Shown: positions 18,999 through 43,787 of the stretch, piece after piece
Position numbering within the stretch: position 1 is the stretch's first letter
How the letters are laid out: every line of letters starts with the position of its first letter
Source of the DNA: a virus
Virus record (IMG/VR): IMGVR_UViG_3300032263_000001
Span: 1-54,040 of that record
DNA length: 54,040 bases
Strand: one strand, 5' to 3'
Notes under the pieces: model-generated
Told to the model about the DNA's origin: nothing
Database searches by the model: none
What the model saw: only the letters and a program-made list of their open reading frames with translations
Position numbers and translations under genes: made by a program

Positions 18999-19337
18999 TT
19001 AATGGAGGTTTTTAGTAATTTCAAGGTAATCGATTAGGGCATTCATAACCTTCGAGTTTTTTCCGAACCTTGCGAAAAAATCCGCAAAAAACTCGGCATG
19101 TTTCGAAGGCACTTTTACAGAAGTCCAGGTGCTTTTTTCTTTTTGAGGAGCTTCTTTTATCCCTTCAATCATTTCGAAAGATTCTTTTTCTGATAGTCTC
19201 CCGAGATTGATGCACGGGATTTTTAGGGAAGAGGCTAGAAGAACCAACTTCCCTCCCTCTTCCCGTATGATTGTTTCTCGAAATTCGGGAACCTCCTCAG
19301 GAATAGAGAGCTTTCTAAGGGGTACTTTTTTTCTCAT
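18999..19337 (-). CDS. Unknown small protein
   Basis: 112 residues beginning MRKKVPLRKLSIPEE. It overlaps the MazG-like gene by 23 bases in another frame. A helical C-terminal third (HAEFFADFFARFGKNSKVMNALIDYL) is amphipathic. I recognise no family. It is the last gene of the radical SAM operon. Confidence 0.65.
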   Translation of the reverse strand: MRKKVPLRKLSIPEEVPEFRETIIREEGGKLVLLASSLKIPCINLGRLSEKESFEMIEGIKEAPQKEKSTWTSVKVPSKHAEFFADFFARFGKNSKVMNALIDYLEITKNLH

Positions 19338-19851
19338 CTCTCCCTCTTGTTTTCCTGCGGTTGTTTTCTATCCCCATAGCTAGTATTTGAGTTGGAGTGA
19401 TTTCCTCTCCCATGAGATAGTAATACTCCCGGCAAAAGAAATAGAAAATGGCCGATACTGTGCTTGCCACCTCCTCGGATATCTTTAAAAAGGAGGTTTC
19501 ACACTTCTCAAGCATTCCCTTCCTTACATTCTGCAAGAGCAGACCCACGTGGAATTGGTTCCATTCGTCGTCTTTTGGGAAGGCTTCCTGCAGAATCTCA
19601 TCCGATAGGAATTTGCTTGAAAAAGAAGAGAGACCCATCTCTTCGGAGGCTCCGACGACTAGACTTAGGTAAAAACAAATATCTCCCAACTCGGAGAGCT
19701 TTTCATCTAGCTTGACTTCGGTAGTCATGCCGTACTCCGCTGCTTCGGAATAAACTCCCAGGACTCCACAAAGAAGTCTCTCTCTAACCGGGTTTTCTTC
19801 AAATCTATGCTTTACGTTTTCGAGGTAATAGTCTCTTATCTTCTCTAGCAT
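19315..19851 (-). CDS. MazG-like NTP pyrophosphohydrolase
   Basis: 178 residues, all-helical. The acidic pair motifs of the MazG/all-alpha NTP-PPase group are visible as GVYSEAAEYGM and KLSELGDICFYLSLV. Such enzymes hydrolyse nucleoside triphosphates to monophosphates; in phages they may tune nucleotide pools or the host ppGpp signal. Its start lies within the end of the radical SAM gene, after GGGAGAG. Confidence 0.75.
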   Translation of the reverse strand: MLEKIRDYYLENVKHRFEENPVRERLLCGVLGVYSEAAEYGMTTEVKLDEKLSELGDICFYLSLVVGASEEMGLSSFSSKFLSDEILQEAFPKDDEWNQFHVGLLLQNVRKGMLEKCETSFLKISEEVASTVSAIFYFFCREYYYLMGEEITPTQILAMGIENNRRKTRGRDEKKSTP

Positions 19852-20684
19852 TGTCTCTCCCTCAAATCAAAAGAGCTTTCATAGAGTTTCATATCGCTCA
19901 AATCAAGGAAACCACTGAAAGCTTCAGGTTCATAGAGAGACACTTTGAAAGGATGTTCCCCTTTCACTAGGTATTGATGAAAGTTTGCACCGAAAGCCAG
20001 TTTCGAGCAATCCATTGGAGCCCGCCCCAAGAGATACTCCCAGTCAATCCTTTTCTCTTTTGCCCTTCCTTGACTCCCATAGGGGAGTAGAACAAAATGG
20101 TCAACAACGTCCTTAAAGATTTTGTAGCACTCCAAGAAATACTCAATAGAATCTTTATCCGAGATAATAAGATGCAGGTTCAACTTCATTCCTCTTGAAG
20201 CAAAAGATTGAACAGCCATCCTCCATTCAGCGTTCAAATGAGGATGACAGGAAACGGCTACCCCTCCACAATACTCTATCGTAGCATTGATGATATCTTT
20301 GCAGACAAGTCTTCCATTTGTAGTGTAGTTTGGTTGAATCCCAAGTGACTGGAAGGTAGCCAAGAGGTCAAGAAATTCTGGGTGGGTTGTTGGCTCCCCT
20401 CCTCCAATTGCTACTTGAAAAGGTCTTTGGTTCGGCTCCATGGCTCCAAAATATTGTTCTATTTTTTCACAAATGTTGTCAAAGTGAGGTTTCTTATCTG
20501 TCGAATCCATGTAGCAATAGGGGCACTCTCCCGTGCAGTAATCCGTAATCTTCACATCGTAAAATTCAGGGAATTTTACTTTTTCTATAGGTTTCGAACT
20601 ATCTAGAGCGATTCTTACTGTTCTCCCTGTTTGAGGGAAGAAAAACGCTTTATAGTTACTTTCTTGTTCAATTCTTACTTTCAT
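19845..20684 (-). CDS. Radical SAM enzyme, substrate unknown
   Basis: 279 residues. The Fe-S motif CTGECPYC (Cys 50, 54, 57) and a GGGEPT SAM-binding loop are intact, and a partial TIM barrel follows. There is no obvious SPASM cysteine array, although two cysteines lie near the end (APMDCSKL and the final RERQC). Its ATG overlaps the stop of the last of three paralogous small proteins (ATGA), so enzyme and small proteins are made from one message. Peptide modification is one possibility; nucleotide or tRNA modification are alternatives. Confidence 0.85.
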   Translation of the reverse strand: MKVRIEQESNYKAFFFPQTGRTVRIALDSSKPIEKVKFPEFYDVKITDYCTGECPYCYMDSTDKKPHFDNICEKIEQYFGAMEPNQRPFQVAIGGGEPTTHPEFLDLLATFQSLGIQPNYTTNGRLVCKDIINATIEYCGGVAVSCHPHLNAEWRMAVQSFASRGMKLNLHLIISDKDSIEYFLECYKIFKDVVDHFVLLPYGSQGRAKEKRIDWEYLLGRAPMDCSKLAFGANFHQYLVKGEHPFKVSLYEPEAFSGFLDLSDMKLYESSFDLRERQC

Positions 20685-20848
20685 TCGTACATCTCCTCAG
20701 TCCTAATAGACTTCAAAAGGTCTTCGACTTTTCTACTATCTCCCAGCCCTTTGAGTATTTCTTGAATCAGTTCTTTTGTGTAGATGACACTAGAACTATT
20801 CGTTATAACGTCAACTAAACTGTGTATTTTTAAAGAAAACTTATCCAT
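20681..20848 (-). CDS. ITNSS-motif small protein C (shortest paralogue)
   Basis: 55 residues. It keeps the N-terminal block KIHSLVDVITNSSSVIYT and the helix KELIQEILKGLG of its two upstream paralogues, but lacks the ten-residue YQ...EPA insert and most of the acidic C-terminal domain. The ATG overlaps the stop of protein B in ATGGATAA, and its stop overlaps the radical SAM start. It could be a decaying copy or a trimmed functional version. Confidence 0.8.
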   Translation of the reverse strand: MDKFSLKIHSLVDVITNSSSVIYTKELIQEILKGLGDSRKVEDLLKSIRTEEMYE

Positions 20849-21170
20849 TGTATTCCGCCTCATGTGTGGGAGAGTTTAAAAACGCTACCAGCCTCCTAGC
20901 AATCGGTTGAAACCTTTCTTCTTTAGCTTCAATAATGAGGCTTGTTTCATTTCCGCAACAACTCCACTCTGGAGAAGAGTCCTCCACCTCAAAGTCAATT
21001 TCGAATAGTTGGTCTACCTCTCTATCTTCTCCAAAAGCTTTAAGGATTTCTTGAATCAGTTCTTTAGCTGGTTCAACACTCGAAGCTTGATATGAGTAGA
21101 TAACCGTTGAGCTATTCGTTATTATCTCAACCACACTATGAATTTTTAGCTTAAATTTCACATTATCCAT
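20841..21170 (-). CDS. ITNSS-motif small protein B
   Basis: 109 residues. The N-terminal block KIHSVVEIITNSSTVIYSYQ is almost identical to the other two copies. Next come a helix (EPAKELIQEILKAFG), a short acidic section with WSCCGNE, and EAKEERFQPIARRLVAFLNS. I chose the ATG at 21170, which overlaps the stop of protein A as ATGGATAA, the same junction as between B and C. An upstream ATG at 21182 is also possible. Confidence 0.82.
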   Translation of the reverse strand: MDNVKFKLKIHSVVEIITNSSTVIYSYQASSVEPAKELIQEILKAFGEDREVDQLFEIDFEVEDSSPEWSCCGNETSLIIEAKEERFQPIARRLVAFLNSPTHEAEYNG

Positions 21171-21513
21171 AGCTTGCATCACTCGAAACGGAGTTTAAAA
21201 ATTCATCCATTTTTTCAGCCAACGCTTCGAAACGCTCCTCTTTCGCTGTTATTGTTAAATTCTCATCTCTCTGGCACTCATCAACATCTTCGCAATCTTC
21301 ACAAGAACACTCGCAATCTTCCATATCCTCCCTCTCAATTTTAAATTCAAAAGCATCGTCAACGTCAACGTTTTCTCCCATAAGTTTCAAAACTTCTTTA
21401 ATCAGTTCTTTAGCTGGTTCTAGGCTTCCACCCTGATAAGTGTAGATAACCGTTGAGCTATTTGTTATCACTTCCACAATGCTATGAATAGCAATTTTAA
21501 AACTTTTCATCAA
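21163..21513 (-). CDS. ITNSS-motif small protein A
   Basis: 116 residues, first of a tandem family of three. It has the conserved opening IHSIVEVITNSSTVIYTYQ, the helix EPAKELIKEVLKLMG, an acidic cysteine-rich centre (CECSCEDCEDVDEC) and the closing AKEERFEALAEKMDEFLNS. The family name is not known to me. Similar TNSS-type openings occur in hypothetical proteins of other phages and bacteria, from memory only. The operon continues into a radical SAM enzyme. Confidence 0.85.
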   Translation of the reverse strand: MMKSFKIAIHSIVEVITNSSTVIYTYQGGSLEPAKELIKEVLKLMGENVDVDDAFEFKIEREDMEDCECSCEDCEDVDECQRDENLTITAKEERFEALAEKMDEFLNSVSSDASYG

Positions 21514-21573
21514 AGTTCTCCTTATTTTTCTAGTAATAGTTTGAAAAACTATTTGTTATTTTCTTCCTTATTT

Positions 21574-21605: not shown

Positions 21606-23768
21606 TCAGAAAAAGTTTTCTGGGTTGCCTTCCATATACCCTTTGAACTTCTCCACTTCGGAAACTGCTCGAGGGTCTATGTAGCGTTTTTGAAGCTTGC
21701 AAGGTAGGGAGATTTTTCTCACGGGTTCGCTTCTCGTAAAAAAGGAAAGTTCTTCTTTTCCCTCTTCAAGGCCGTCACCCCAAACGTCGGCTTCCAGGCG
21801 AACGTCGGCAACACTTCCCATCACTCTCCGGAAACCTTCAATCATTGCTTCTCCCAAAGCAAGAGCTGAACTCCTCCATACCTCTTTCCTGCAAATGATA
21901 TAGAGAGCGTCATGGAGCGTGTAGATGACTCTCAAGGTTTTCTTTAGTACTGCTATTCTGTGAGCCTCCCTCATAATAACCCCTCCCCTCCCTTGAATAG
22001 GGGTGTTTTGAACGCTCTTAGCGTTGTCGTTGTCTCCAAACATAGTCCAACCGTCAGGGAGGAACAAAACTTTTTCCTCTTCATACTCTCTCAGTATGTC
22101 CCATTTATACTTCGTGTAGTCTGAATAAGTATCCTCAAAAAGCTCGATAAGGGTTTCAGCTTCACTCTCCGACACCTCTTCTTTAGCGGCAGCGGAAAGT
22201 TTGGCAGCTAGAGCGAAGGGTCCAGCCCCAAACTGCACCATCAAAGTTGTTGCTTTCAGTTTCTCCCGAATAAGCCCGTGGGTTTTTTTGGTAGCAGTTG
22301 GGGGTACGACTCCCGCTTTCTTCCCGAAAGAAAGATAAACATCTCCTTCCCGGTAAGAAGAGATCATCTCTTCATCTTCCGAGGCTAAGGCAGCTATCAA
22401 GTACTCTTCGGAACCATAATCGATCCCGATACAAACATAGCCTTCGGGAGGTTGAATCAAGTACCTCATCCAAGCCGCTTTGAGGGGAATGAAACCAGTT
22501 GCAGCGGGTTGACTCCTCGAGCTCTGGGAACCATAGTGATGGAAGTAAGGCCTTACTTTTCCATCAGACCCCACGTAGTCGAAAAAGTTCTTTTTCCCCT
22601 TTTTAGCCGGGAGGAACCCATTAAGAGATTTTTTCACTCTTAGAAATCTTAAAAGTTGCTCTAAATAATCCGAAGAAAAATCGTGCCTAGGGTCCCCACA
22701 AGCGGAGGAGATTATCTCTTCTTTAAGACTCGGTTTCTTGCTCTTCTTAGAAATCGGCCAATTCTTGAATCGGGGATCCTTCTTACCTTCTATCTCCTTC
22801 TCAATTAGCTCCTGGAAAGCTTTCTGTTTGAAATTCCCATCTAGCCTTTTCGGTTCCAAACGAACCCAAACGTTCCCGTTTTGGACCTTCTTTTTCTGCT
22901 TTTTCTCGGAAAAGTCGAACATTTGGAACCCTATTTGATGTTCCGTTTTTTGGTTGATATCTCTCTTAAGTTCCCTAAGAATGTTATCGACTGAAGCAGC
23001 GAAGTTTCGAGTTTGTTCGATGTTTACCGGGTACCCCTCATGAACCATCTTAGCTACCAGCATCGAATACTCTCCCCTTTTGATAGCCTGCTTGAGGTAC
23101 TTCTTTTTGGGGAAAGGTAGGTGGGATTTTTTCATAGCCTGAAATATTCCAATAAAAAGGCTTTCCAAGCGGGCAATATCCGATTCGCAGTATTCCACTA
23201 TTTCAGGCAAATCCTCTTCAGTAAACTTCTCCGATATGATGAGGTCTCTAACTCGATTCTTTCTTTCAGTGTCAATCAGCTTCCCTAGAATTTTATAGCA
23301 AGCTGCTGCAAGGGAAACTTGAGCTTTGTTAGACTCCCGCTTGACAGCATCTTCCTCGTCCTCGTTTTTTCTCTCCCACTTTGGAGGAGGTTTATAGGTA
23401 AACTTTTTCTCTCCATTTATGAGCTGCTTCCCATATTCGTAAGCGTCGTTTCGATTAAGGAGCATGGAATACTCAACCAAGGTATCTACCCATTGAAATT
23501 TAAGAGGATCGATTCCTAGAGAGAGAAGAGCCCTCCCCTCAGCTTCAGCGGCGTGGGCAATAAATATGGCTCCCATTTCTCTCAAATCTTCTAGTGTGTT
23601 TTTGAAGTCTCCTAAGGTCCCCCACTTCCCGAAAGAGTTCTTTTCGAAAACAAAAGATCTTATCGTTTCCTTATATCCGATGTTATATCTTAGAGAGAAG
23701 CAAACAACTCTCATTTTTGGCTCTGAAATCCGGGTGAATTCCGAGTCAATAGAAACGAAAAAACTCAT
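21606..23768 (-). CDS. Family A DNA polymerase with 3'-5' exonuclease domain
   Basis: 720 residues, the replicative polymerase. The exonuclease shows DSEF (residues 8-11), FIAHAAEAEG and YCESDIARLES. The polymerase domain has motif A IGIDYGSEEYL (about 447), motif B KATTLMVQFGAGPFAL (about 508) and motif C TLHDALYI (about 617). The two catalytic Asp are kept, but motif C reads HDA where most family A enzymes have HDE. It ends in NPENFF. The start overlaps the helicase stop (TAATG). Confidence 0.92.
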   Translation of the reverse strand: MSFFVSIDSEFTRISEPKMRVVCFSLRYNIGYKETIRSFVFEKNSFGKWGTLGDFKNTLEDLREMGAIFIAHAAEAEGRALLSLGIDPLKFQWVDTLVEYSMLLNRNDAYEYGKQLINGEKKFTYKPPPKWERKNEDEEDAVKRESNKAQVSLAAACYKILGKLIDTERKNRVRDLIISEKFTEEDLPEIVEYCESDIARLESLFIGIFQAMKKSHLPFPKKKYLKQAIKRGEYSMLVAKMVHEGYPVNIEQTRNFAASVDNILRELKRDINQKTEHQIGFQMFDFSEKKQKKKVQNGNVWVRLEPKRLDGNFKQKAFQELIEKEIEGKKDPRFKNWPISKKSKKPSLKEEIISSACGDPRHDFSSDYLEQLLRFLRVKKSLNGFLPAKKGKKNFFDYVGSDGKVRPYFHHYGSQSSRSQPAATGFIPLKAAWMRYLIQPPEGYVCIGIDYGSEEYLIAALASEDEEMISSYREGDVYLSFGKKAGVVPPTATKKTHGLIREKLKATTLMVQFGAGPFALAAKLSAAAKEEVSESEAETLIELFEDTYSDYTKYKWDILREYEEEKVLFLPDGWTMFGDNDNAKSVQNTPIQGRGGVIMREAHRIAVLKKTLRVIYTLHDALYIICRKEVWRSSALALGEAMIEGFRRVMGSVADVRLEADVWGDGLEEGKEELSFFTRSEPVRKISLPCKLQKRYIDPRAVSEVEKFKGYMEGNPENFF

Positions 23769-39892: not shown

Positions 39893-39983
39893 TTGCAATC
39901 TTTTAAAAATTAAGGTATTGTAAAAGTAGAGACCGAATAAATGAAGTTGACTCAACGCTTTCCCAAAGGAGAGCGTTTTTTTT
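39893..39983 (+). ncRNA. Candidate small RNA: promoter plus terminator
   Basis: TTGCAA, 17 bases, TATTGT (39893-39921; same -10 and spacing as the early promoter) is followed by a 9-bp intrinsic terminator with eight T (39955-39983). The predicted RNA of about 55 nt starts near 39928, lies between two leftward genes and is antisense to the 3' end of the folE message. An ATG at 39941 in it has no ribosome-binding site. Confidence 0.55.
39954..39983 (+). terminator. Rightward intrinsic terminator
   Basis: ACGCTTTCC, four-base loop, GGAGAGCGT, then eight T on the plus strand. It stops either read-through from the early block (after crossing the lipoprotein gene antisense) or the small RNA above. 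Confidence 0.9.
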
Positions 39984-40485
39984 ATCTCTCGAAGACAGTA
40001 TGCAGAGTTGCTCCGGGTTTCATTGCTCCTCTTAAAGTCATGCAGGTGTGTTGAGCTTCAATTTCTATTCGAACGTTAAGAGGTTTTAAGTGCTCTATGA
40101 TAGCCTGCCCAATCTCCAATCCAAGCCTTTCTTGAAGCTGGAGCCTTTTTGAGAAGCAGTCAACCAACCGAGCGAGTTTACTGATTCCTACTAAGTCATC
40201 AAACGGAGTGTAGGTAATGGATACCTCGCCAAAAAAAGGCATTAGGTGGTGCTCACAAATGGAAACAAATGAAATGTTTCTTAGGGTGATAGGTCTTTCT
40301 AGGTCGAATCTCTTCAGCTCTTCATTGAAAGTCCGGGAGAGGATTTCTTTAGGATCCATATTGTATCCCGAAAGAAGTTCCGACCAAGCTCGGTGAACTC
40401 GTTTTGGAGTATCTTTCAAACCTTCTCTGTCGGGATCTTGGCCAATGCTTGATAGGAAACTTCTAATCCCTTCTTGCAATTCCAT
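39982..40485 (-). CDS. folE: GTP cyclohydrolase I
   Basis: 167 residues. It converts GTP to dihydroneopterin triphosphate, the first step of 7-deazaguanine synthesis. The zinc residues are visible in SICEHHLMPFFG and QHTCMTLRGA, and DREGLKDTPKRV is the usual N-terminal motif. Somewhat shorter than bacterial FolE at the N-terminus. Last gene of the modification operon, one base after queE. Confidence 0.95.
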   Translation of the reverse strand: MELQEGIRSFLSSIGQDPDREGLKDTPKRVHRAWSELLSGYNMDPKEILSRTFNEELKRFDLERPITLRNISFVSICEHHLMPFFGEVSITYTPFDDLVGISKLARLVDCFSKRLQLQERLGLEIGQAIIEHLKPLNVRIEIEAQHTCMTLRGAMKPGATLHTVFER

Positions 40486-40486
40486 T

Positions 40487-41167
40487 CTAAACTCCTCTCT
40501 TATTTCCCCATAGGCGAATTTGAAGCCTATCGGAGTACCTTAGTTTTGGATTCAATGCTAACCAGTTCATGCATTTCTTTGCATTGTGGTTCAATTCAGC
40601 GGGAGTTTTCCCTACTGGCATTAAGAAAAAACTGCAAGTATCTACGGGGAAAGTACTCATCAAATCCGTTAACTCTCTATAATTGGTACTCGTAGAAACT
40701 GGCATTTTGATTTGATACTCTTGCCCAATTTCAGGCAAACACAAATCGCTTAGCCCGACACACTTGCCCGACTCCTTAAACCTCATACCTACCTTTGGAG
40801 AGATGCTATAGAGGAGGTCTTTTTTTGGTAGGGGGAAAGTTCCGTTTGTTTCGATAGTGATTGAAAACCCTTTGTAAGAAAGTTTCTCAGCTAGCTGGAG
40901 AACCGGCTCTCTATTCCAAGGTGCCATAGGCTCCCCTCCCGTTATCACCACTTCGGTAGCTTTCGGGATTCGTATCCTTCGAATCAACTCGTCTAGGCTA
41001 TAGGGGTTGTTTTCTTTTCGAGATATAGCATATTCGGTATCACAAGAACTTTCACCCCAGTGACAAGAGAGATTGCACCCGGAAACTCTAACGAAAGTAG
41101 AGAGCATCCCCGCTTTAATTCCCTCTCCTTGAATTGAGGTGAAAAGGGGTTCGGCTAAACAAATCAT
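40487..41167 (-). CDS. queE: 7-carboxy-7-deazaguanine synthase (radical SAM)
   Basis: 226 residues from the ATG at 41167, overlapping the queD stop (TGATG). FTSIQGEGIKAG and VVITGGEPMAPW are typical QueE motifs. The Fe-S cysteines read CNLSC HWGESSC, that is C-x3-C-x6-C, with four extra residues before the last Cys compared with the common C-x3-C-x2-C. It makes 7-carboxy-7-deazaguanine for QueC. Confidence 0.92.
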   Translation of the reverse strand: MICLAEPLFTSIQGEGIKAGMLSTFVRVSGCNLSCHWGESSCDTEYAISRKENNPYSLDELIRRIRIPKATEVVITGGEPMAPWNREPVLQLAEKLSYKGFSITIETNGTFPLPKKDLLYSISPKVGMRFKESGKCVGLSDLCLPEIGQEYQIKMPVSTSTNYRELTDLMSTFPVDTCSFFLMPVGKTPAELNHNAKKCMNWLALNPKLRYSDRLQIRLWGNKRGV

Positions 41168-41589
41168 CAAACATACTCCAACTTGCAAGAGTTTTTCGGG
41201 GTCTCCCAAAGAGTCAGGGAGGCGATTTTGATTCCTTCTGGAAGTACTTTGTCAAAGTCTTCAGCCATAAGATGTACTAAGTTCTCTGCGGTAGTCTCCA
41301 TGGGAACTTCAAGATATGCTGTTTTCATTTTGATAGCGATAGACTTTAGGTCAATATCATTCATATAAAATAACAACTTGTGGTCGTATTTGGAGAGAAC
41401 ATATTCTACGTGTTCCTTGAGCTGACCAAAATCCACAATCATATCGCTAGCTGTTTGCGGGTCCTCATAAACCTCGATGATCCCCTTCCAGGTGTGACCG
41501 TGAAGATTGGCACAAGCTCCCTCGTGAAAAGTGAGCCGGTGAGCCGCATCAAAGGTAAACTCTCTCGAAACTGTCAGTTTCGTTTTCAT
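41167..41589 (-). CDS. queD: 6-carboxytetrahydropterin synthase
   Basis: 140 residues. Zinc-binding His in FDAAHRL and NLHGH; catalytic Cys in GACANLHGH; DHKLL and LWETPKN complete the family signature. It converts dihydroneopterin triphosphate to carboxytetrahydropterin. ATGA overlap with queC. Confidence 0.95.
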   Translation of the reverse strand: MKTKLTVSREFTFDAAHRLTFHEGACANLHGHTWKGIIEVYEDPQTASDMIVDFGQLKEHVEYVLSKYDHKLLFYMNDIDLKSIAIKMKTAYLEVPMETTAENLVHLMAEDFDKVLPEGIKIASLTLWETPKNSCKLEYV

Positions 41590-42260
41590 ACTTCCTCCTC
41601 CTCGTATTCGGTAGGGTCAAATCCTTCAAGAGCTTCTTTTCTTTCGACACAAGTTCCACACTTCCCACAGTGCTTTTCTCGGCCATTATAGCAACTCCAG
41701 GTCTCTTCAAAGGGTACTCTCAAAGCTCCTCCGAGCTGGGCAATCTCTCTTTTGGAGCGACTGGCAAAAGGAGCTTCGAGAGTAATCCAATTGTTTGTAC
41801 CTCGGGAGATAGCTTGACTCATAGCGGAAACAAATTCTTTCCGACAATCAGGATAGATTGCATGATCTCCTGCATGGCCTCCATAGAGAAGTATCCCTTC
41901 TTTAAGGAGTCCAGCGGCAATAGAAAGCATGATCCCATTTCGGAAAGGGACGACAGTTTTTTCCATTGACTTCTCTTCATAGTGACCTTCGGGAATATCC
42001 TTTTGAGAGGCTAACAAGCCCGACTTCATTCCCCAAGAGGAGAAGTCTAGAGGAATGATTCGATGTTCGAGTTTGACCTCTGGAAAGGCTTCCTGAGCTA
42101 AAGAGAAAATAGTCTTAGCCTTGGAGAGTTCTTTTTCAGCGTGAGCTGAACCATAGTCAAATGAGAGAAGCAAGATATCTTTAACGTTGTCAATGTAAAC
42201 TGTTTTCCAAAGTAACACAGTGGAGTCCATTCCTCCCGAGAGGAGAATACATCTTCTCAT
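41586..42260 (-). CDS. queC: 7-cyano-7-deazaguanine (preQ0) synthase
   Basis: 224 residues from the ATG at 42260, overlapping the dpdA stop. The PP-loop LLSGGMDS (residues 6-13) and the C-terminal zinc knuckle CYNGREKHCGKCGTC are intact. No fused amidotransferase (gat) domain is present, so the product should be preQ0 rather than an archaeosine precursor. FDYGSAH replaces the usual FDYGQ. Confidence 0.93.
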   Translation of the reverse strand: MRRCILLSGGMDSTVLLWKTVYIDNVKDILLLSFDYGSAHAEKELSKAKTIFSLAQEAFPEVKLEHRIIPLDFSSWGMKSGLLASQKDIPEGHYEEKSMEKTVVPFRNGIMLSIAAGLLKEGILLYGGHAGDHAIYPDCRKEFVSAMSQAISRGTNNWITLEAPFASRSKREIAQLGGALRVPFEETWSCYNGREKHCGKCGTCVERKEALEGFDPTEYEEEEV

Positions 42261-43150
42261 ATTTTGTATCCTTTCTGTTTTAACCATCGATAGGCTTTTA
42301 AAACGTGGTAAAGTTGAGTAGATTGACAAGCAAAATAACAGCGGGTTGAGTACTTTTTCTCAAGCAAGTCATAGAACAGGATGTAAGAGAAAGTTGTTAG
42401 CATTTGGACAACCCCGTTCGACCCTCCAGAAGCCAAGTCTGCTAGGTTTCTATCTAAAGACTTTTCATATCCTCCGTTGTTTCCCCATATGACTTTTCTA
42501 TTTAGTGAGTTCAGTCTCAACCCAAATAACTTAAAAATTCGGTTGTTAAGCTTGGTTCGATTTTTTAGATACTCTTGATAGGAATAGGTTTTAACGTTCC
42601 CCGATTCCTCAAGGATTCGTAAACCTCCGAAAAGGTGAGTTCCCATCCAAGAGGAAGCATCAGCGCTATAGAGGATTCCCCCTTTATCCATCAAGCCTTT
42701 TCGAACATATCCGAGACCATGAAACTTCTTTTCTGGATAGAGTTTCAAGAGATGTTTAACATAGTCATCAACAAAGTGTTTTGCAATCCCACCTATCGCA
42801 AGATAGTCACACAGGCTAACCGATTTCTCGATAGTTTCTAGACTTGAGCCATTAGTAATAACTCCTATGAGCCTTTCCCCATAGAGTTTCTTCATCGTTT
42901 CAAGATTCTTTAAGGTTTGTTTCTCATCTCCGATAACATCTAGGTGAACAAAGTTGAAATCATCGTTTATCTTGAGAAGTTTGTCCAAGAAAAGACAATA
43001 CTCCTTTAGTTCGATAGGCTTCCCAGTAGAGTAAGCCGTAAAGGCTCCACTATCCAAAATGAGGTTTACCTCTTCCCCGTATTCAGAAAAGAACTTTTTA
43101 AAGAAATCGATATCCCTGGAATAGACATAGCTGACAAGGATATTTATCAT
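42257..43150 (-). CDS. dpdA: DpdA-like DNA 7-deazaguanine transglycosylase
   Basis: 297 residues. The TGT-like motifs LDSGAFTAYSTG (candidate catalytic Asp33), LAIGGIAKH, FHGLGYV and YSADASSWMG match phage DpdA proteins, which exchange guanine in DNA for preQ0 or a derivative. A cysteine pair near the C-terminus (CYFACQS) with a following His may be the zinc site. Head-to-tail ATGA overlaps with the ParB-like gene and queC show coordinated synthesis. Confidence 0.85.
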   Translation of the reverse strand: MINILVSYVYSRDIDFFKKFFSEYGEEVNLILDSGAFTAYSTGKPIELKEYCLFLDKLLKINDDFNFVHLDVIGDEKQTLKNLETMKKLYGERLIGVITNGSSLETIEKSVSLCDYLAIGGIAKHFVDDYVKHLLKLYPEKKFHGLGYVRKGLMDKGGILYSADASSWMGTHLFGGLRILEESGNVKTYSYQEYLKNRTKLNNRIFKLFGLRLNSLNRKVIWGNNGGYEKSLDRNLADLASGGSNGVVQMLTTFSYILFYDLLEKKYSTRCYFACQSTQLYHVLKAYRWLKQKGYKI

Positions 43151-43719
43151 TTTAAAGTTACCTCAGGATATCCTTCTAAGAAAGCTTGAAGGCTTTCTAA
43201 GATTTCAGGCTTACTCCCGAAAGGAACCATGAGAAGGATTTTTTCATTGGGCGGGTCTTTATCCTCGCCCTCCTCTTTTGGTTCCGGGTCTTTTGGTTCC
43301 TCATCGAAAACGCGGTCAATATCCATAACCAGAGTGTCTAGTCTTAACTCTTCAAAGGGAGCCTCCCCTAGGTCAAGTTTGATTCCTTCTAGCAAGTTTT
43401 GAAGGTCTCCCGTAAACTCCCCTTCAATAGCTGGGTTGTTTAGGGAAACATTCATTTGTTTCTCTTTATCTAGGGAAACGTCAACCGTAATAACCGGGAC
43501 TTTCTCGTATCCGAGTTCAGTTAAAGCCCTGAAACGCTGGTGACCTGCAACCAAATTCCCGGTTTGTTTGTTCACCACTAAAGGCTGGACAATACTATTT
43601 TGTCTCAAGCTTTCTTTAAGACCTTCAAAAGCTTTCTCCGAAATACGACGGGGATTGTAGGCAGCGGGGTTTATTTTAGAGATAGACACCCAAGTCATTT
43701 TCTCTTGATATTTTTTCAT
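43147..43719 (-). CDS. ParB-like nuclease-domain protein
   Basis: 190 residues; the ATG at 43719 follows GGAG by seven bases. The ParB N-terminal fold is clear: ISKINPAAYNPRRI, SIVQPLVVN, LVAGHQRFRALTELG. There is no HTH DNA-recognition domain and no ParA gene, so plasmid-type partition is unlikely. It heads the deazaguanine operon and may guide or assist DNA modification. The C-terminal part is acidic. Confidence 0.8.
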   Translation of the reverse strand: MKKYQEKMTWVSISKINPAAYNPRRISEKAFEGLKESLRQNSIVQPLVVNKQTGNLVAGHQRFRALTELGYEKVPVITVDVSLDKEKQMNVSLNNPAIEGEFTGDLQNLLEGIKLDLGEAPFEELRLDTLVMDIDRVFDEEPKDPEPKEEGEDKDPPNEKILLMVPFGSKPEILESLQAFLEGYPEVTLK

Positions 43720-43787
43720 TGAAAAACTCCTTATTCTTGTCTCTAAAGCATACACGAATAAAGAGGGGATTTCAAATAAGGGTTCCG

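Follow-up and report, generated by a model that had tools for sequence, protein, structure and literature searches.

A radical SAM enzyme and its TNSS-motif partner proteins as a portable phage cassette proposed to modify proteins

We describe a two-part phage module in which a radical SAM enzyme (rSAM) is encoded together with proteins that carry, near their start, a strongly conserved Thr-Asn-Ser-Ser-(Ser/Thr) motif (TNSS). We propose, with a probability of roughly 55%, that this is a portable phage cassette for the radical modification of proteins, the rSAM taking and altering the TNSS motif itself. The copy studied here lies in a 54,040-base viral contig, called the window below. The partnership, operon organization, two-way fusions, cassette exchange, matching of motif types to enzyme clades, and motif conservation are documented here by sequence comparison. 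For the fuller picture, an undescribed and widespread phage system in which one auxiliary-cluster-free rSAM places the same radical modification on the TNSS motif of tandem, diversifying effectors, we put the odds at about even.

Genomic setting and organization of the cassette

Pfam and PHROG scans of the window show genes for structure and lysis (terminase, major head, tail, endolysin) and for replication and recombination (DNA polymerase A, primase-helicase, SNF2-type helicase, HU-like protein, exonuclease, Holliday-junction resolvase). The cassette comprises TNSS proteins A, B and C followed by the rSAM, and is bordered by the polymerase gene and a 178-aa ORF (Table 1). The latter has only a very weak MazG-like match (phrog_16522, E 0.18) and is not common to relatives of the cassette. 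Scans of the flanking window genes turned up no transporter or peptidase. Elsewhere on the minus strand, a preQ0 DNA-modification cluster (39982-43755), which also encodes a ParB-like protein, suggests that the phage DNA carries 7-deazaguanine.

Table 1. Coordinates of the cassette, its neighbors and the preQ0 cluster in the window.
Feature	Position	Strand	Description
Polymerase gene	23768..21606	-	cassette A/B/C/rSAM sits between polymerase and 178-aa ORF
AAGGAG ribosome-binding site of A	21518..21523	-	read from sequence
TNSS protein A	21163..21510	-	115 aa; ATG start; motif VITNSSTVIY; acidic Cys-rich loop (5 Cys)
Motif ITNSSTVIY in A	21442..21468	-	proposed target site
A stop/B start	21163..21170	-	ATGGATAA overlap
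TNSS protein B	20841..21170	-	109 aa; motif IITNSSTVIY
Motif ITNSSTVIY in B	21096..21122	-	proposed target site; within pLDDT <50 segment
B stop/C start	20841..20848	-	ATGGATAA overlap
TNSS protein C	20681..20848	-	55 aa; VITNSSSVIY; short form retaining motif and first helix
Motif ITNSSSVIY in C	20780..20806	-	proposed target site
C stop/rSAM start	20681..20684	-	ATGA overlap
rSAM	19845..20684	-	279 aa; CxxxCxxC and GGGEP; no further conserved Cys
CxxxCxxC motif of rSAM	20514..20537	-	cluster-binding; C50, C54, C57
178-aa ORF	19315-19851	-	overlaps rSAM 3' end by 7 nt
FolE (GTP cyclohydrolase I)	39982..40485	-	preQ0 cluster
Second radical SAM gene, QueE-like	40487..41209	-	between FolE and QueD/QueC
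QueD	41167..41589	-	preQ0 cluster
QueC	41586..42329	-	preQ0 cluster
DpdA-like transglycosylase (phrog_887)	42257..43150	-	preQ0 cluster

As the original prediction had stated, A, B and C are adjacent paralogues with a common N-terminus, IHSxVxxITNSS(S/T)VIY; their two junctions are identical, and the third small gene overlaps the rSAM start. A and B are 51% identical (1e-36) and B and C 55% (1e-17), with direct repeats of 164, 62 and 56 nt spanning the blocks common to the three genes. Since nonsynonymous change lags behind synonymous change both between A and B (dN 0.28 vs dS 0.98) and in the motif block of B and C (dN 0.18 vs dS 2.7), all three proteins, including the short C, are under protein-level selection. 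Gene A stands as predicted with its start moved, position 21513 being a TTG one codon upstream of the ATG. A promoter had been placed ahead of the set; no sigma-70-like promoter was found on the minus strand upstream of A, and the five promoter-like sites of the region do not exceed the number in shuffled sequence (mean 3.8, sd 2.2).

The small proteins had further been described as carrying a variable cysteine core. The cysteine counts are correct (five in A, CC in B, none in C), but the loop is confined to A and B and absent from relatives, among which no cysteine is conserved. On the same grounds, the Cys-rich middle was rejected as a sactipeptide core. The window TNSS proteins are acidic and have no family match in Pfam, PHROG and NCBIfam scans; the Pfam candidates PurS, HMA and UfSP2 (E 0.03-0.22) remained below cut-off.

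Conservation of the TNSS motif

The motif occurs in two forms, (R)xGVFETNSSSTHS and HSxVDVITNSS(S/T)xI(Y/F). In 274 different proteins it lies nearly always 10-11 residues past the start Met, and its residue frequencies are R 93% (position -6), V 82%, F 95%, E 94%, T 98%, N 100%, S 99%, S 100%, S 94%, T 75% and H 94%. When 67 diverse TNSS members are aligned, N, S and S are the sole invariant residues. At each of the three serine positions about half of the codons are TCN and about half AGY, with all combinations present and 184 spellings in total; serines kept across such switches of codon family mean that the constraint acts on the protein. Such conservation could also reflect a docking site, the chemistry being elsewhere.

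Co-occurrence of motif genes and enzyme

To measure linkage from the motif side, viral contigs were searched with a DNA pattern for VFETNSSSTH, which returned at least 120 stretches, 116 of which passed a filter for an in-frame ORF with the motif at its N-terminus. Among the matches listed, an rSAM lay within the surrounding stretch at 85 of the 116 loci, on the same strand in all 85 and downstream in 78 (median gap 7 nt), and at the loci lacking a nearby rSAM the stretch mostly ended near the motif gene. For 26 records of these latter loci, searching beyond the motif stretch revealed an rSAM elsewhere on the contig in 17; the nine others comprise six fragments of 7-38 kb and three contigs of 122, 139 and 597 kb, and a second profile, applied to five of these nine, again gave no rSAM. 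For the motif type of the window, the enzyme was near the motif at 12 of 14 loci, and elsewhere on the contig at the remaining two (L259, L264). On the L264 contig (G028:C1 37532-40233), which carries at least five tandem ITNSSSE genes, the rSAM match falls into two pieces about 2 kb apart, for which an intron, an intein or a frameshift are candidates. The internal control consisted of 16 DNA-pattern matches that lacked a credible motif ORF in frame; none had an rSAM (Fisher p ~1e-8).

Linkage is also apparent from the enzyme side. With DNA patterns drawn from the rSAM alone, a same-strand TNSS ORF was found at 71 of 78 loci (60 by a strict rule, 11 by a looser one). Of the seven without one, three stop at the rSAM or shortly ahead of it, one extends 0.8 kb upstream, and two (L024, L045) belong to contigs that gave TNSSS loci elsewhere, leaving L221 as the sole unexplained case. 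The enzyme family is present in only 24-34 of 50,697 annotated phage records, and because it is this rare the co-occurrence is not background. Nearly all homologues of the small proteins have an rSAM, and the claim that the two make up one functional system is strongly supported by linkage, fusions and portability and applies widely.

The motif pattern was found only 42 times in ~85,000 genomes of bacteria and archaea, mostly on gut MAG contigs, with an rSAM at 26 of 40 such loci. On this distribution, the TNSS/rSAM pair looks like a phage system. Two of the loci lie in isolate genomes, Acetivibrio ethanolgignens (L169) and Eubacterium plexicaudatum ASF492 (L170); both are probably prophage, and they offer cultivable sources of the system. 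Single-protein searches of viral contigs gave no match for the window rSAM and, for protein A, a chance match (L002) without the motif; a related-locus search with gp146 of Salmonella phage Arash gave no match.

Named phages, fusions and mobility

Distant tblastn matches of the window rSAM lead to several named phages. In Salmonella phage Arash, a single chain, gp146 (L003 4527-5957), joins a TNSSSSHS domain to the rSAM and is annotated as a methyltransferase. Microcystis phage Ma-LMM01 encodes a VFETNSSSTHS protein (gp130) two genes ahead of its rSAM (gp128), while in Thermus phage phiYS40 an MTNSSSAS protein (YS40_162) overlaps the rSAM (YS40_161). In Lak-B1 and Lak-A2 of Prevotella, four or five FETNSSSTH/VH genes stand in tandem behind the rSAM, and in Vibrio phage D479 a VSNSSSSS protein is encoded ~1.4 kb ahead of the rSAM. 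Enterobacter phage phi5, whose SPASM rSAM has no TNSS protein, and Mycobacterium prophi68-1 were set aside as non-members.

Fusions occur in both orientations: an N-terminal TNSSS segment is joined to the rSAM in Arash gp146 and at nine viral loci (six distinct proteins), and the motif is fused to the C-terminus at L099/L120. The largest array seen, at L123, holds about ten tandem FETNSSS-type genes and two rSAM matches in 11.6 kb. At another TNSSS locus (L041 3165-4799), an apparent intein, part of which resembles a homing endonuclease, interrupts the rSAM.

Eleven relatives of the window type have matching TNSS genes and an rSAM 46-55% identical to that of the window, whereas 14 flanking window genes have no match in the DNA surrounding these same eleven cassettes. 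With the cassette matched and its flanks unmatched, enzyme and motif genes travel jointly between different phages. Furthermore, motif types follow the enzyme phylogeny: on a 53-row rSAM tree, a quick tree on which long branches are flagged, the FETNSSSTH, ATNSSSSH (fused) and xITNSS(S/T) types need 3 changes, against 17.6 when shuffled, and the window type makes up one fully supported clade of 12 rows (100*), which includes the window rSAM and in which every row has ITNSS-type neighbors.

The radical SAM enzyme

The window rSAM belongs to the radical SAM superfamily (PF04055; 41.7 bits vs a cut-off of 29.5). The CxxxCxxC cysteines are present in all 104 relatives, among which no other cysteine column reaches 20%. 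Pfam SPASM does not match the window rSAM, although it does match the outgroup enzyme of Enterobacter phage phi5, and the auxiliary-cluster ligands of SPASM/twitch peptide maturases are missing from the C-terminal domain. Because only the three CxxxCxxC cysteines are kept, the enzyme is not an ordinary SPASM RiPP maturase. Its C-terminal block, YMGDDGxxTxYIDxVxxxFAxxS, lines up with the SPASM region, which bears cysteines, of the Vibrio phage D479 outgroup and, from this alignment, appears to be a cluster-less counterpart of it.

SuiB, SkfB, CteB and PqqE come first or close to first in profile and Foldseek searches; viperin and MoaA rank lower. Consistent with the original prediction, the window rSAM was not placed in a known tRNA or cofactor pathway: no NCBIfam equivalog reached its cut-off, and the phage has a separate QueE-like gene. 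Two specific identities were rejected. QueE is matched at only 2.9e-4 (phrog_2076), and the phage has its own radical SAM of this kind in the preQ0 cluster; viperin (NF038283), the best NCBIfam match by E-value (7.5e-10), scores 38.4 bits vs a cut-off of 180. The PHROG phrog_16999 (Fe-S oxidoreductase) matches both the window rSAM (5.8e-12) and Arash gp146 (5e-29).

Variable bodies and predicted structures

Behind the motif, TNSS proteins diverge into up to 32 sequence clusters, some of them fragments, with partners mostly of 55-300 aa and no residue outside the motif common to all clusters. Two clusters are large, one of ~172 aa with GxFGW...GYIDH...GNDN, the other acidic, of ~114 aa, with a C-terminal VAFGxYGYDG. 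The bodies have no convincing Pfam match and a single PHROG of unknown function, phrog_28997, which corresponds to the TNSSS type of Microcystis phages and matches 28 of 67 diverse TNSSS proteins; the window proteins do not match it despite the common motif. Several families (L007, L260-L274, that of the window) end in short conserved tails such as GYDG, FHLG and YKGN, with SYG and YNG at the C-termini of window A and B. These tails are possibly a second recognition element.

An AlphaFold2 model of protein B (21 rows, mean pLDDT 71) predicts a strand (6-10), a helix (33-45), two strands (56-63 and 75-82) and a second helix (85-99), mostly at good confidence, while the conserved segment 13-26 remains below 50. 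Likewise, in the model of a natural fusion (L251; mean pLDDT 78.7, pTM 0.81) the motif-bearing residues 1-14 lie below 50 and the body is folded. The low motif values come from thin alignments of 21 and 22 rows. A segment that is predicted to be flexible and yet is the most conserved has the look of a linear peptide motif to which another protein binds, as the models suggest without proving it. Foldseek found nothing significant for protein B in the PDB (best E 0.48); its best BFVD hits are two uncharacterized phage proteins (E 2.5e-3 and 1.2e-2).

Proposed mechanism and competing explanations

In the reading that we favor, a stand-alone rSAM with a single [4Fe-4S] cluster motif would be made together with one to about ten TNSS proteins, and the flexible motif of each would enter its active site as a peptide. 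Cleavage of SAM would yield a 5'-deoxyadenosyl radical that abstracts hydrogen from the T-N-S-S-(S/T) core, leading to alteration of one residue of N-S-S-(S/T). The variable bodies would be effector parts, which the change may activate, stabilize or tether during infection. Given that auxiliary-cluster cysteines and a conserved H-donor cysteine are both absent, general rSAM chemistry would make a SPASM-type oxidation or a Cys-dependent epimerization less likely than redox-neutral rearrangement, cleavage or cross-linking within the motif. By analogy, the nearest folds SuiB, SkfB and CteB, being peptide-modifying rSAMs, would count for modification of the motif, whereas viperin and MoaA, also among the nearest folds, act on nucleotides and would count against it.

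What the invariant block does is the main point on which explanations part. In a RiPP-like arrangement, the TNSS block would serve as a leader or docking sequence, and modification would fall on residues of the variable body or the C-terminus. A conserved N-terminal block followed by variable sequence is indeed a RiPP layout, RiPP maturases (SuiB, SkfB, CteB) are the nearest folds, and some families have conserved C-terminal tails (VAFGxYGYDG, FHLG, YKGN). However, the body clusters have no residue in common outside the motif, cysteines are not conserved, both the B body and that of the fusion are predicted to be folded behind a flexible motif, and no RRE match was found. We consider this explanation possible but the less probable one, at about one chance in four in our judgment. 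The RiPP-specific part of the original prediction is not supported, with a Cys loop limited to A and B, no conserved cysteine in relatives, partners that are mostly folded and of 55-300 aa instead of leader-core peptides, no SPASM cysteines and no RRE found. More probably than acting as a classical leader, the invariant N-terminal block would itself be the site that is modified.

Alternatively, TNSS proteins could act as adaptors or as regulatory subunits delivering the rSAM to other targets, be they host proteins, nucleotides, RNA or DNA, with the motif as an unaltered subunit interface. Several distinct partners per enzyme and natural fusions would fit such a role, as would the superfamily-level likeness to viperin (NCBIfam, 38 bits; Foldseek), but that score is far from the model's own cut-off. 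Moreover, three adjacent hydroxyl residues kept at 94-100% would be unusual for a mere interface, and an adaptor role would have to accommodate some ten adaptors with unrelated bodies for one enzyme, as at L123. We regard it as unlikely. Finally, that the genes encode DNA mimics or inhibitors merely located beside an rSAM gene, an alternative raised earlier for which the acidic, family-less window proteins speak, is contradicted by linkage, fusions and portability across unrelated phages and is highly improbable.

Relation to known systems

The cassette resembles RiPP or sulfatase-maturase logic in its layout, an analogy that holds for some features only. Like rSAM RiPP maturases (SuiB, SkfB, CteB, PqqE), which are the best PDB matches of the window rSAM by profile and fold, it combines a radical SAM core with an enzyme gene beside genes for small proteins with conserved N-termini. 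Unlike these systems, it has no auxiliary-cluster cysteines, no PqqD/RRE match by Pfam in the rSAM, partners or neighbors, and no common core, and most of its partners are folded proteins (55-300 aa), frequently encoded in tandem and with bodies unrelated to one another. Anaerobic sulfatase-maturating enzymes, rSAMs that alter a Ser or Cys within a short conserved motif carried by folded partners, would be the closest functional analogy, but they rely on SPASM auxiliary clusters, and the cysteines for these are missing here. Viperin combines the best NCBIfam E-value with a place among the Foldseek neighbors, but the cassette's partners are proteins and there is no sign of a nucleotide substrate. 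The two PHROGs that match cassette parts, phrog_16999 and phrog_28997, have no functional description. Searches of the open-access literature, which leaves most subscription journals and preprints outside, found nothing on TNSSS/ETNSSS motifs with an rSAM, and nothing on a TNSS system in work on radical SAM enzymes of phages and huge phages or on viral RiPPs.

Significance for phage biology

Lak megaphages of gut Prevotella, phages of Microcystis, one Thermus phage and one Salmonella phage carry this two-part module, as do more than 100 uncultured viral contigs; the TNSS proteins are currently annotated as hypothetical and the enzyme as an Fe-S oxidoreductase or even a methyltransferase. Should modification indeed fall on the motif, the cassette would represent a radical protein modification that is new, has a defined recognition sequence and comes with ready natural substrates. 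It would also be a shared layer of phage-host interaction, testable in the cultivated phages Arash, Ma-LMM01 and phiYS40.
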